Origin: Caulobacterales bacterium
Lineage (GTDB): Bacteria; Pseudomonadota; Alphaproteobacteria; Caulobacterales; Caulobacteraceae
Direction: 5' to 3'
DNA length: 42,305 nt
NCBI GenBank assembly: GCA_947475655.1
Contig: CANJOB010000006.1
Coordinates: 1-42,305, forward strand
The notes beneath the pieces are model-generated. The model was given only the letters and a program-made list of their open reading frames with translations, searched no databases and had not been told where the DNA came from. The first letter of the stretch is position 1, and each line of letters opens with the position of its first letter. Shown here piece by piece: positions 5,267 to 13,447 of this stretch. A program made the translations under genes and the position numbers.

Positions 5267-5536
5267 CTAGCGGCGGGCGGCCAGGCCGATCAGCAGGCCG
5301 ACGGCGCCGGCGATGGCCACGGCCTTCCACGGCTCCTGTTCGACGAAATCGCGCACCTTGACGACGACTTCCTCGCCCATGTCCACGGCCTCGTCGAAGC
5401 TCTTCTGGCTCAGGCCGGTGAACTCTCCGAAGCGGCCGTTCAGCTCGGCCCCGATGCCGCCCAGGGCGGCGCTCGCGGCGCTCTCGGCCTTGCCGGCCTG
5501 TTTGGCGGCGCCCTTGGCTTTGGTGGCTGCAGTCAT
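5267..5536 (-). CDS. DUF883 (YqjD/ElaB-like) membrane-anchored protein
   Basis: An 89-residue protein: an Ala/Lys/Gly-rich N-terminus, then an amphipathic helical segment, and a C-terminal transmembrane helix (WKAVAIAGAVGLLIGLAARR). The last feature, preceded by VRDFVEQEPWK, is the hallmark of YqjD/ElaB proteins. These are C-tail-anchored inner-membrane proteins, some of which bind ribosomes in stationary phase. The start is the ATG of MTAATKAKG; the 700-aa ORF on the track is mostly antisense to ligD and false. It is divergent from ligD, with candidate stress promoters for both in the gap. Confidence 0.85.
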   Translation of the reverse strand: MTAATKAKGAAKQAGKAESAASAALGGIGAELNGRFGEFTGLSQKSFDEAVDMGEEVVVKVRDFVEQEPWKAVAIAGAVGLLIGLAARR

Positions 5537-5596
5537 TTGAAAACTCCCCACGGCTCGCGCGGACCCCATGTCCGCCGCGATGGCGATCATTGCATC

Positions 5597-5629: not shown

Positions 5630-5656
5630 GGAAACAGTTGGGGCTCCAGAGTCGTT
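5630..5656 (+). promoter_or_regulatory. Candidate EcfG-type (general stress sigma) promoter of ligD
   Basis: GGAAAC, a 17-base spacer, then CGTTGA, about 25 bases before the ligD ATG. This resembles the GGAAC/CGTT pattern of EcfG/SigT/RpoE2. The ligD ribosome-binding site (CGGAGG) follows. Placement and spacing are good, but one -35 base is off. Confidence 0.5.
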
Positions 5657-5680: not shown

Positions 5681-7018
5681 ATGGCGACACGCAAACTGGC
5701 CCGTTATCAGGAGATGCGGGACTTCGGCAAGACGGCCGAGCCCTCCGGCCGCGGCGCCAAGGCCACCGCCTCCCCGCGCCTGCGCTTCGTCATCCAGAAG
5801 CACGCGGCCACCCGCCTGCATTACGACCTGCGCCTGGAATACGAGGGGGTGTTCAAGTCCTGGGCGGTGACGCGGGGGCCTTCCTACAACCCGCACGACA
5901 AGCGCCTGGCGGTGGAGGTCGAGGACCACCCGCTCGACTACGGCGACTTCGAGGGCTCGATCCCCAAGGGCCAGTACGGCGGCGGCACGGTGCTTTTGTG
6001 GGACCGCGGCTACTGGGCGCCCGAGCCCGGTGTCGACATCGAGAAGGCGATGAAGAAGGGCGACCTGAAGTTCGTCATGGAAGGCGAGCGGATGCGCGGA
6101 AGCTGGGTGCTGGCGCGGATGAAGCGCCGGCCCGGCGAGAAGCGCGACAACTGGCTGATGATCAAACACAAGGACGAGTTCACGGTCGAGCAGCAGGAGG
6201 AGCTGGGCCCTCGCGACGATCCCTCCATCGCGTCGGGCCGCACCATGGCGCAGATCGCCGCCGGCGGCGGCAAGGGGCCCACGCCGTTCATGACGGCGAA
6301 GGCCGGCAAGGCCGACGCGGTGTGGCAGAGCCACCGCAACGACAACTCCACGGCCGCCGCCGCGCCCAAGGTCGCCAAGGCCAAGCCCGCAGCGAAGACA
6401 AAGCCGAAGACGAAGCCCGCCGAGGCCATGCCGCGCTTCATCGCGCCGCAGCTGTGCAAATTGGTCGACCGCCCGCCGCAGGGCGGCGGCTGGGCGCACG
6501 AGATCAAGTTCGACGGCTACCGCATGCAGCTGCGCGTCGAGGGCGGCGCGGCGCGCCTCTCCACCCGCAAGGGACTGGACTGGTCCGATAAGTTCGCCGA
6601 GATCGTCGACGACGGAGCCGCGCTCGACGATGCGATCATCGACGGCGAGGTGGTGGCGCTGGACCACAACGGCTCGCCCGATTTCGCCGCCCTGCAGGCG
6701 GCCATCTCCAGCGGCGACACCGACGATCTTGTGTTCTTTGTCTTCGACCTGCTGTTCGAGCGCGGCGAAGATTTGCGCGCTCTGCCGCTGTCGGAGCGCA
6801 AGACGCGGCTCAAAGCTTTGATCCCGGCCCGTCACGCGCGGCTGCGCTACGTCGATCACTTCGTCACGGGGGGCGACGCGGTGCTGCAGTCGGCCTGCCG
6901 CATGGAGCTGGAGGGGATCGTCTCCAAGAAACTGGACGCGCCCTATCATTCCGGCCGCAGCGAGAGCTGGACCAAGGCCAAGTGCCGCGCCGGGCACGAG
7001 GTGGTGATCGGCGGCTGA
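5681..7018 (+). CDS. ligD: LigD N-terminal piece: 3'-phosphoesterase plus ligase catalytic domain
   Basis: A 445-residue open piece starting at MATRKLARYQ, with CGGAGG about 10 bases upstream. Residues 35-150 form the 3'-phosphoesterase domain (HYDLRLE with His47, then EDHPLDYGDFEG and IPKGQYGGGTV). A Lys/Ala/Pro-rich linker (about 225-245) leads to the ATP-dependent ligase domain with nucleotidyl-acceptor Lys276 in EIKFDGYR, then DGEVVALD and later GIVSKKLDAPY. The piece stops right at the end of the nucleotidyltransferase subdomain, before the OB fold, so it should be able to take AMP but is unlikely to seal DNA well. The 717-aa ORF beginning at 4865 has a false N-terminal extension. Confidence 0.85.
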   Translation: MATRKLARYQEMRDFGKTAEPSGRGAKATASPRLRFVIQKHAATRLHYDLRLEYEGVFKSWAVTRGPSYNPHDKRLAVEVEDHPLDYGDFEGSIPKGQYGGGTVLLWDRGYWAPEPGVDIEKAMKKGDLKFVMEGERMRGSWVLARMKRRPGEKRDNWLMIKHKDEFTVEQQEELGPRDDPSIASGRTMAQIAAGGGKGPTPFMTAKAGKADAVWQSHRNDNSTAAAAPKVAKAKPAAKTKPKTKPAEAMPRFIAPQLCKLVDRPPQGGGWAHEIKFDGYRMQLRVEGGAARLSTRKGLDWSDKFAEIVDDGAALDDAIIDGEVVALDHNGSPDFAALQAAISSGDTDDLVFFVFDLLFERGEDLRALPLSERKTRLKALIPARHARLRYVDHFVTGGDAVLQSACRMELEGIVSKKLDAPYHSGRSESWTKAKCRAGHEVVIGG

Positions 7019-7078
7019 ACCACCACGGGAAACGCCTTCCGCTCGCTGATAGGCGGGGTCTATCGCGACGGCAAGCTG

Positions 7079-8278
7079 GTGCATGTGGGCCGGATCGGCA
7101 CGGGCTTCGGCCGCGAGAAGGTCGATGTCCTGCTGCCGAAACTCAAGGCCCTGGAGACCGACAAGAGCCCGTTCGAGGCCGGCGCGCCGAAGAAGGCGCC
7201 GGGCGTGCATTGGGTCAAGCCGCGGCTGGTGGCCGAGATCCAGTACGCCGGATTCACCGGCGACGGCTCCCTGCGCCAGGCGTCGTTCAAGGGCCTGCGC
7301 GAGGACAAGCCGGCCTCGGAAGTCGAGGCCGAAACGCCGGCGCCGGCCGAGACCACGCCGCTCGCCCAACCCACCCCCGGCAAGGCCGGGTCAGCCAGCG
7401 TCATGGGCGTCGCCATATCCAAACCCGACAAGCCGCTGTGGCCGCATGCGCACGACGGCAAGCCGGTGACCAAGCTCGACCTGGCCCGCTATTTCGAGGC
7501 CGTGGCCGGCCACATCATGCCGCACATCAAGGGCCGCCCCTGTTCGATCATCCGCGTGCCGGACGGCATCGGCGGCGAGACCTTCTTCCAGCGCCACGCC
7601 GCGCGGGGAACGAGCGCCCTGTTCGACGAGGTGGAGGTCTTTGGCGACCACAAGCCCTACCTGGTGCTGAACCGCGCCGAAGCGCTGATCGCCGCCGCCC
7701 AGATCGGCGCCGCCGAACTGCATCCGTGGAACTGCCAGCCCGGTCAGCCGGAGGTCCCCGGCCGGCTGGTGTTCGACCTCGACCCGGCGCCGGACGTCTC
7801 GTTCGAACAGGTGATCGAGGGCGCCCGCGAGGTGCGCGACCGCCTGGAGGAGCTGGGGCTGGTCAGCTTCGCCAAGACCACCGGCGGCAAGGGCCTGCAT
7901 GTGGTCACGCCGTTGAAACCGTCGAAGATCGACTGGAAGACCGCCAAGGCCTTCGCCCGCGAGGTCTGCGCCCGCATCGCCGCCGACAGCCCCGACCGCT
8001 ACCTGATCACCATGGCCAAGAAGGACAGGGGCGGGCGCATCTTCCTCGACTACCTGCGCAACGACCGCATGAGCACGGCGGTGGCGCCGTTCTCGCCCCG
8101 CGCCCGCGACGGCGCCACCGTGTCCTGGCCGCTGAACTGGGCGCAGGTGAAGGCCGGGCTCGATCCGAAGAAATACACCATCCGCACCGCGCCGCCCCTG
8201 CTGGCCAAACTGACCGCCTGGGAAGACTACTGCGACAGCGAGCGCGACCTGGCGGCGGCGATCAAGCGGCTGGGGTGA
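7079..8278 (+). CDS. ligD: LigD C-terminal piece: ligase OB fold plus polymerase/primase domain
   Basis: A 399-residue open piece in the same frame as the N-terminal piece, with GTG (7079) as the first possible start. It begins in the ligase OB-fold ([10 protein letters not shown], then [20 protein letters not shown]). After an Ala/Pro-rich linker comes the archaeo-eukaryotic primase-type polymerase domain from about [10 protein letters not shown]. The metal-binding Asp pair is in VFDLDPAP and the fold continues through [13 protein letters not shown] and [20 protein letters not shown]. There is no convincing ribosome-binding site, so whether it is translated alone is uncertain. If it is, it would resemble the free LigD-type polymerases of other bacteria. 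Confidence 0.75.
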
Positions 8279-8357: not shown

Positions 8358-9611
8358 ATGTTCGAACTAACCGGCTACCACGCCTTGCTGGCGGTGCTCG
8401 GCGTCGCGGTCATCCTGGCCTACTGGCTGCCTCGGTTCTTCTCCGGCCGCGAACCGGCCGCCTCCGCCCTGCTGATCGGCCTGGGCGCCCTGCTGTTCAA
8501 CTGGGCCCCGGAAGCGCGCACGGCCCTGGACCCGCTGACCTCGCCGCACGGCTGGGAGATCGCCAGCGAGCTATGCCTGATCTTCGGCCTGTTCGGGGTC
8601 GGGCTGCGAATCGACCGCCTGGCCAATCTGCAGCGCTGGCTGCCGACCCTGAGACTGCTCATCTTCGCCATGCCGCTGACGATCCTGGGCGTGGCGGTGC
8701 TGGGGCGCGAAGTGGCGGGCATGACGCTCGGCGGCGCCCTGCTGCTCGGCGCGGTGCTGGCGCCGACAGACCCGGTCCTGGCCAGCGACGTGCAGGTCGG
8801 CCCGCCCACCGAGGGTGGCGAACACCCGGTCCGCTTCACCCTGACGACGGAAGCGGGGCTCAACGACGGCCTGGCCTTCCCGTTCGTGCACCTGGCCCTG
8901 GCCGTCGCCGCCACGGGATTGATCACCGGCGGCGTGGTCACCGAGTGGCTCTGGCGCGACGTGGCCTACCGCATCGTCGTCGGCGCCGCCTGCGGCATCG
9001 CCATCGGCTGGCTGCTGAGCCAGACCCTATTCCGGTTTCCGCGTGAGAACGCCCTGGCCAAAACGCAGTCGGGCGTGTTCGCCCTGGCCGGCGTGCTGGT
9101 CTGCTACGGCGCCACCGAGCTGGCCGAGGGCTACGGCTTCATCGCCGCCTTCATCGCCGGCCTCACCCTTCGCCGGGTCGAATCCACGCACGAATTCCAT
9201 ATCCGCCTGCATGACTTCTCCGAGACCATCGAGCATGCCCTGACCGCCATGCTGCTGATCGCCTTCGGCGCGGTGATGCCGGGCTTGCTGACGCACCTGG
9301 ATTGGGTCAGCGCCGTCATCGGCCTGGGCCTGATCTTCGTGCTTCGGCCCGCCATCGGCTGGGTCTCGCTGCACGCGACCCTGCTGAGGGGACGGCGGCG
9401 GATGATCGTCGCCGCCTATGGCGTGCGCGGCATCGGCTCGATCTACTACATGGCCTACGCGGGCAGCCACACCGACTTCAAGAACGAGGCCGAGCTGTGG
9501 GCGATCGTTGCCTTCACCATCCTCGTCTCGACCGTGGTGCACGGCTTCACGGCGGCCATCGCCGTCGAGAAGGCGACTGGGCGGAGCGCAGCCGAGGACC
9601 CGGCGGGCTAG
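8358..9611 (+). CDS. CPA1-family cation:proton antiporter (NhaP-like)
   Basis: A 417-residue inner-membrane protein with about 12 membrane segments. It carries the CPA1/NhaP signature LAPTDPVLASDVQVGPP and the ion-site ND pair in TTEAGLNDGLAFPF. It should exchange Na+ or K+ for protons, aiding pH and salt tolerance; cation choice cannot be read. The length is shorter than antiporters with a cytosolic tail, and it ends right after the last membrane segment. The ATG has a strong GGAGGGGG site. It lies between ligD and ku, and its stop shares a CTAG palindrome with the stop of ku, so the two are convergent. Confidence 0.9.
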   Translation: MFELTGYHALLAVLGVAVILAYWLPRFFSGREPAASALLIGLGALLFNWAPEARTALDPLTSPHGWEIASELCLIFGLFGVGLRIDRLANLQRWLPTLRLLIFAMPLTILGVAVLGREVAGMTLGGALLLGAVLAPTDPVLASDVQVGPPTEGGEHPVRFTLTTEAGLNDGLAFPFVHLALAVAATGLITGGVVTEWLWRDVAYRIVVGAACGIAIGWLLSQTLFRFPRENALAKTQSGVFALAGVLVCYGATELAEGYGFIAAFIAGLTLRRVESTHEFHIRLHDFSETIEHALTAMLLIAFGAVMPGLLTHLDWVSAVIGLGLIFVLRPAIGWVSLHATLLRGRRRMIVAAYGVRGIGSIYYMAYAGSHTDFKNEAELWAIVAFTILVSTVVHGFTAAIAVEKATGRSAAEDPAG

Positions 9612-10477
9612 GACGCGCGCTTGCGCGGGGCGGACTTCCTCGGCGCGGCCTTCTTCGCCGCTGTCTTGCGGCGCGGCGCGGCGGCTTCGCCACGGCGGGC
9701 GCCGCCTTCGCCGAGGCTGCGGCGCAGCGCTTCCATCAGGTCGCCCACTTCTTCCTGCTCCGGCTCCTTGGCGGTCACCATGCGGCTGGCGGATTTCTCC
9801 TTGGACTTGATCAGGGCGCGCAGCGCTTCCTCGTAGTGGTCCTTGAACTCGCTCGGCTCGAACGGACCTTCCTGCTGCTGGATGATCTTGGCGGCGATAT
9901 CGATCATGTTCTTGTCGGCCTTGATCGCCGGGATGTCGTCGAACACCGAGTCCGGGTCCTTGATCTCGTCATAGGACCGCAGCGTATAGGCCAGCAGGCC
10001 CTTGCCGCGCGGCTCCATGGCCAGCAGCCGCTCGCGCTGGTGCATGACCACGCGGCCGAGCGCGATCTTGCCGGCCTTCTCCATCGCCTCGCGGATCACG
10101 GTGAAGGCCTCCACCGCCACCTTGCCGTCGGGGACCAGATAGTAGGGGTCGTTCCAGTAGATGCGGTCGATGTCGGCGGCGTCGACGAAGCGGTCGATGT
10201 CGATGGTGCGGGTGCTCTCCAGCCGCACGTTGTCGATCTCTTCCGGCGTGACCACCACATAGCGGTCCTTCTCGATCTCGTAGCCCTTGACGATGTCAGC
10301 CCGGTCTATGGGGCCCAGGTCGGGGTCGGTCGGGATCATGCGGATGCGGTTGTGGGTCTGCTTGTGCAGCATGTTGAAACGCACGTCCCCGCCACTGGCG
10401 ACGGCCGTGTACAGGGCCACCGGACAGGAAACGAGCGAGAGGCGCAGGTGGCCCTGCCAGGTGGGACGCGCGGCCAT
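9608..10477 (-). CDS. ku: Ku protein, non-homologous end-joining DNA end-binding factor
   Basis: A 289-residue bacterial Ku. It forms a homodimeric ring on DNA ends and recruits LigD. The N-terminal signature WQGHLRLSLVSCPVALYTA and HKQTHNRIRMIP, then GYEIEKDRYVVVTPEEI and NDPYYLVPDG, are typical of the Ku core (about residues 5-250). The C-terminus is a Lys/Arg/Ala tail (KTAAKKAAPRKSAPRKR), as in Ku proteins that can thread onto DNA. The start was set at MAARPTWQG with AAGGAG upstream; the track's 531-aa version has a false extension. Its promoter region is shared with the histidine kinase. Confidence 0.95.
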   Translation of the reverse strand: MAARPTWQGHLRLSLVSCPVALYTAVASGGDVRFNMLHKQTHNRIRMIPTDPDLGPIDRADIVKGYEIEKDRYVVVTPEEIDNVRLESTRTIDIDRFVDAADIDRIYWNDPYYLVPDGKVAVEAFTVIREAMEKAGKIALGRVVMHQRERLLAMEPRGKGLLAYTLRSYDEIKDPDSVFDDIPAIKADKNMIDIAAKIIQQQEGPFEPSEFKDHYEEALRALIKSKEKSASRMVTAKEPEQEEVGDLMEALRRSLGEGGARRGEAAAPRRKTAAKKAAPRKSAPRKRAS

Positions 10478-10502
10478 ACGGAGACTCCTTTGCGAATGGC
10501 TT

Positions 10503-10527
10503 GAACGCATTACGGCCACTAGCGTTC
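10503..10527. promoter_or_regulatory. Palindromic, possibly bidirectional EcfG-type promoter between ku and the histidine kinase
   Basis: GAACGC at 10503-10508 and GCGTTC at 10522-10527 are inverted copies. As a result both strands read GAAC, 16 bases, CGTT, which is the spacing of alphaproteobacterial EcfG/SigT promoters. The minus-strand copy sits about 27 bases before the ku ATG, with AAGGAG between; the plus-strand copy sits about 40 bases before the kinase ATG. The first G of the GGAAC -35 is C or T here. A repressor operator is the alternative reading. Confidence 0.5.
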
Positions 10528-10567
10528 GGTAGCTTGACCATAAAGAGCGCTTGCGCGGGATCGGCGC

Positions 10568-13447
<2,880 letters not shown>

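Follow-up and report, generated by a model that had tools for sequence, protein, structure and literature searches.

A probable EcfG-type promoter of ku conserved in Caulobacteraceae and self-complementary beside a divergent hybrid histidine kinase gene

Introduction

Bidirectional promoters that arise from sequence symmetry have reportedly been described in bacteria by Warman et al. in 2021, work cited in PMC12340889. Within the Alphaproteobacteria, the end-joining gene ku has been connected to the general-stress sigma factor EcfG: in Sphingomonas melonis, ku is EcfG-dependent and the same table lists a CGAAC promoter (PMC6599016), and in Sphingopyxis granuli ku-ligD is placed within the direct EcfG regulon, with AAC as the near-invariant core of EcfG sites and GGAAC and GCAAC as the commonest -35 elements (PMC7083833). 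The stress kinases that feed PhyR are of the HWE/HisKA2 type (PMC12148442).

Here we analyse a self-complementary site between ku and a divergent hybrid histidine kinase gene in a window of 42,305 nucleotides, the whole stretch of DNA under study, from a Caulobacterales bacterium (GenBank assembly GCA_947475655.1, contig CANJOB010000006.1). An initial annotation had read this palindrome as an EcfG-type promoter on both strands, through which one site would co-induce both genes. As set out below, its sequence and a link to ku that is conserved across Caulobacteraceae make it very probable that the site serves ku as a general-stress promoter.

Results

The site lies between divergent genes at promoter-like distances

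The left arm GAACGC (10503-10508) and the right arm GCGTTC (10522-10527) are separated by 13 bp, and GAAC-N16-CGTT is matched on the plus strand at 10503-10526 and on the minus strand at 10527-10504, exactly as the initial annotation had it (Table 1). The symmetry is limited to the 6-bp arms, the whole 25 bp agreeing with their own reverse complement at 14 of 25 positions. Because these inverse, overlapping elements sit between divergent ku and kinase genes, the arrangement has the layout of a symmetry-based bidirectional promoter. The sensible distance to each gene that had been claimed is also found: 26 nt from the -10 element to the ku start codon and 41 or 77 nt to that of the kinase, depending on whether its ATG is at 10568 or at the alternative position 10604, which has the better Shine-Dalgarno sequence. 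The ku start (ATG at 10477) is conserved, with AGGAG at a normal distance.

Table 1. Features of the ku-kinase intergenic region (positions in the window).
Feature	Position	Strand	Basis or remark
Self-complementary site GAACGC-N13-GCGTTC, overlapping candidate EcfG-type promoters	10503..10527	both	
ku promoter, -35 core GAAC, preceded by C (CGAAC)	10524..10527	-	pattern match and family conservation at ku
ku promoter, -10 CGTT, 16-nt spacer	10504..10507	-	pattern match and family conservation; predicted ku transcription start near 10496-10498
Putative kinase promoter, -35 core GAAC, preceded by T (TGAAC)	10503..10506	+	pattern match; some homologous kinases alike in distance
Putative kinase promoter, -10 CGTT, overlapping ku -35	10523..10526	+	pattern match; predicted start near 10533-10535
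ku Shine-Dalgarno AGGAG	10485..10489	-	overlaps the sole nearby GANTC (10483-10487)
ku, non-homologous end-joining protein	9608..10477	-	Pfam PF02735; NCBIfam TIGR02772 over cut-off
Hybrid histidine kinase: PAS domains, HisKA, HATPase_c, receiver	10568..13447	+	domain matches; start perhaps 10604

A Pfam search of the kinase gave no match to an HWE or HisKA_2 domain and found HisKA (PF00512) instead. Its adjacency to ku is unique to the window genome among 51 loci (0 of the 50 others). In the window, ku and ligD do not share a transcription unit. Upstream of ligD, which starts at 5681, lies an imperfect EcfG-like motif (GGAAAC-N17-CGTT, 5632-5656) with a GANTC inside it at 5649-5653; no shared motif upstream of ligD was conserved in relatives. 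An apparent frameshift at 7015-7079 parts the ligase portion of ligD from the polymerase portion, and a DUF883 (ElaB-like) gene (5267-5539, minus strand) is divergent to it. In several genomes of the same genus (L384-L392), ku directly follows an otsA-like gene, named from its sequence, for trehalose-phosphate synthase, a typical stress gene; for genus g1, where such a gene lies before ku, no EcfG promoter was found immediately upstream of it in the stretches examined.

Position and conservation at ku raise the site above chance

The palindrome by itself is at chance level and unremarkable, since 6-bp arms with a 13-nt gap occur 31 times in the window against 22-30 times in 10 shuffles. Over the whole window, GAAC-N16/17-CGTT has 3 matches versus 1.9 expected, and GAACG-N15/16-CGTTC has 1 versus 0.12. 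Across the window organism's own genome, GGAAC-N16/17-CGTT shows no overall enrichment (33 against 32), so genome counts are uninformative here and position is informative.

The site stands out from chance through where it lies and how it is conserved at ku, not through its symmetry. We examined 160 nt of upstream sequence for each of 86 Caulobacteraceae ku genes. GAAC-N16/17-CGTT is present at 53, a figure that does not stand for independent events because the 86 sequences are kin, and yet their spacers, flanks and neighbouring genes differ. In every case the distance from the end of the match to the ATG is 23-53 nt. Dinucleotide shuffles gave a mean of 0.43 and a maximum of 3 matches, and the reversed pattern gave 0; conservation in relatives, the check suggested along with the initial annotation, thus came out in favour of the element. 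When GCAAC is counted too (the [GC]AAC form), the motif is found at ku in 13 of 14 genera, and the closest ku relatives carry GCAAC in place of GAAC. In other families of the Alphaproteobacteria, 9 of 29 ku genes are preceded by the strict motif, as GGAAC or GCAAC.

The ku promoter is a variant of the EcfG type

The window genome, an incomplete draft assembly (83% complete), encodes nepR, the start of ecfG as a fragment at the contig end and a divergent phyR, all on contig C81; in this draft, the receiver part of phyR contains an in-frame TAG (L067, 1225-1227). The nepR/phyR intergenic region of the same genome has GGAAC-N16-CGTT in both directions. The EcfG promoters of nepR and phyR point in opposite directions, and in some species GGAACCGGTTCC brings two -35 elements into head-to-head overlap (L233, 1764-1829).

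On the ku strand, the AAC core, the 16-nt spacer and CGTT are all present, with CGAAC standing where the canonical element is GGAAC; the -35 on the kinase strand, TGAAC, likewise departs from GGAAC. The same trait runs through the family: at 48 of the 53 Caulobacteraceae ku promoters GAAC is preceded by C, T or A, while nearly every nepR/phyR site has G there. We file the ku promoter as an EcfG-type variant and not as a canonical member. Recognition by EcfG is the best reading of the site, though the promoter may be a weaker one or may answer to a different sigma factor.

Some homologous kinases carry the same motif

Upstream of homologous kinases, the motif occurs in 7 of 69 cases (8 of 70 with the window), 126-169 nt before the equivalent of residue 27, the window distance being 144 nt. 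Shuffles yielded a mean of about 0.8 and a maximum of 5, and the reversed control 0. GGAAC or GCAAC is found in 6 of the 8 motif-bearing upstream regions, the window counted. The other 62 homologues, the closest one (L069) among them, are without the motif. A second promoter at the site, serving the kinase, is therefore a plausible proposal with moderate support from sequence comparison, weaker than the ku reading. The claim of a promoter on both strands is strongly supported for ku, by conservation and by published work on other Alphaproteobacteria in which ku depends on EcfG (PMC6599016, PMC7083833), and moderately supported for the kinase strand.

Symmetry follows mostly from the spelling of the promoter

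Read on the opposite strand, CGTT becomes AACG, and the -35 core GAAC and the -10 CGTT are therefore nearly reverse complements of each other, so that the promoter becomes symmetric once GAAC is followed by G and CGTT by C. Of the 53 Caulobacteraceae ku promoters, 35 have the G next to GAAC and 14 the C next to CGTT; 7 are symmetric, versus about 9 predicted from the column frequencies. Four of the six other symmetric ku promoters appear to have a codirectional upstream gene. We conclude that the self-complementarity comes mostly from the way in which promoters of this class are spelled.

We rejected the idea that self-complementary EcfG sites form a genome-wide class after a count over 40 genomes, in which GGAACG-N15/16-CGTTCC is not enriched (17 sites versus 51 matches of the reversed control). 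We preferred this count to one in the window organism's own genome, where GAACG-N14/15-CGTTC gave 11 sites versus 4, nearly all within open frames and with spacers of 15-16 nt, not 16-17.

The proposal of a single evolved bidirectional site that co-induces ku and the kinase is not supported by these comparisons, given that symmetry arises at about the expected rate and mostly without a divergent partner, that the two genes adjoin in one genome among the 51 loci and that symmetric sites are unenriched genome-wide. Moreover, each -35 shares bases with the -10 of the opposite promoter, and two promoters at this site would therefore compete and not fire together.

GANTC pairs flank many ku promoters in relatives

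GANTC, the methylation site of CcrM, is methylated in a replication-dependent way. Of 58 ku promoters of relatives, 29 have it directly behind the -35, 30 directly behind the -10 and 20 at both places; at the GGAAC sites of nepR/phyR loci the count is 0 of 77, and the background is 0.0013 per base. The spacing of GANTC pairs peaks at 20 bp, both in Caulobacteraceae, where the pairs at ku are spread over five genera, and in a second alphaproteobacterial family, f14 (loci L354-L383). The region upstream of ku at locus L018 is one example of a promoter flanked by such a pair. The window ku promoter is without the pair, its one nearby GANTC falling in the ku Shine-Dalgarno region; relatives often carry GGAGTC in that region as well.

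In Caulobacter, the position of GANTC relative to the -10 and -35 has been linked to when in the cell cycle a gene is transcribed (PMC4287350). Against this background, a ku promoter that senses replication can be put forward as a testable hypothesis. Our literature search found no paper that joins CcrM, GANTC and end joining, nor one that joins GANTC and EcfG. We tentatively suggest, at rather less than even odds, that a GANTC-flanked ku promoter, shared by Caulobacteraceae with one or more further families of the Alphaproteobacteria, sets end joining by both stress and replication, and that the window copy is a derivative which lost the pair and kept GAACG and CGTTC, and hence became self-complementary.

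Discussion

The reading that we favour, with a probability of about 0.78, is an EcfG-type ku promoter with a second reading toward the kinase that possibly drives some transcription, the two directions competing. Under stress, NepR would release EcfG, which would then recognise the minus-strand CGAAC and CGTT; ku transcription would begin about 20 nt before the ATG and yield more end-joining protein. The opposite-strand reading points to the divergent hybrid kinase and may give some stress-induced kinase transcription. A single polymerase would occupy the site at any one time, either direction being possible and the two in competition. The window would thus hold a conserved ku promoter, symmetric by happenstance, beside a type of gene that is sometimes under the same motif, and both directions may be used. 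Weighing against this reading are the departure from GGAAC on both strands, the in-frame TAG in phyR, the lack of the motif at most kinase homologues and the GCAAC of the closest ku relatives.

The strongest competitor, to which we give a little under an even chance, is that the site serves ku alone, the kinase being transcribed from elsewhere and its apparent promoter an accident of symmetry. This would fit the near-expected frequency of symmetric ku promoters and their mostly codirectional upstream genes, the confinement of the kinase-ku pair to the window genome, the weakness of TGAAC as a -35 and the many kinase homologues without the motif. However, several homologous kinases have GGAAC-N16-CGTT at a closely similar distance, far more often than shuffles do, and a simple scan of 10300-10800 gave no sigma-70-type promoter from which the kinase might otherwise be read.

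Other readings concern what binds the site. That a different ECF sigma factor with a preference for GAAC and CGTT recognises the promoter is unlikely: the first G of GGAAC, present at nepR/phyR sites, is indeed missing from nearly all Caulobacteraceae ku promoters, but ku in other families has GGAAC or GCAAC, CGAAC is among the EcfG targets listed in one study (PMC6599016), and ku depends on EcfG where this was tested (PMC6599016, PMC7083833). Alternatively, the dyad could be the operator of a dimeric regulator, such as one that responds to damage, which would suit the perfect 6-bp arms and has a parallel in Caulobacter, where the 20-bp pseudo-palindrome of DriD controls a bidirectional damage promoter (PMC12340889). 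We consider it very improbable, since the columns conserved at ku are GAAC and CGTT with a spacer of 16 or 17, which suits a sigma factor, whereas the outer arm bases vary. DriD itself was rejected, its consensus ATACGAC-N7-GTCGTAT differing from the site.

With an EcfG-type promoter at ku, control of end joining by EcfG would likely extend to most of the sampled genera of Caulobacteraceae, the family to which a model organism of cell-cycle research belongs. The locus also illustrates how ECF promoters of the GAAC/CGTT class can turn bidirectional by two base changes. The GANTC pairing at ku may be more novel than the symmetric site, and it raises the question of whether methylation, and with it replication state, decides when an error-prone end-joining protein is made; if so, end joining would depend on whether a sister copy exists for recombination.

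Set against known systems, the window site resembles the promoters of EcfG (sigma-T, RpoE2) in its AAC core, its 16-nt spacer, its CGTT, its location just upstream of the gene and the presence of an EcfG system in the genome; it differs in having CGAAC and TGAAC in place of GGAAC and in being readable on both strands. Sphingomonas melonis ku and Sphingopyxis granuli ku-ligD offer the same gene under the same promoter class. However, the S. melonis ku -35 is GGAAC, S. granuli has ku-ligD where the window has ku and ligD apart as transcription units, and the window ku has a divergent kinase that the available parts of the two studies do not mention. The EcfG-feeding kinases PhyK and Pak are of the HWE/HisKA2 type, whereas the kinase beside ku is a HisKA protein and so falls outside that group. 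As in the symmetric bidirectional promoters reportedly described by Warman et al. 2021, symmetric elements would here permit transcription both ways from one site; in contrast to them, the window holds a predicted ECF promoter, in which the -35 of one strand overlaps the -10 of the other.
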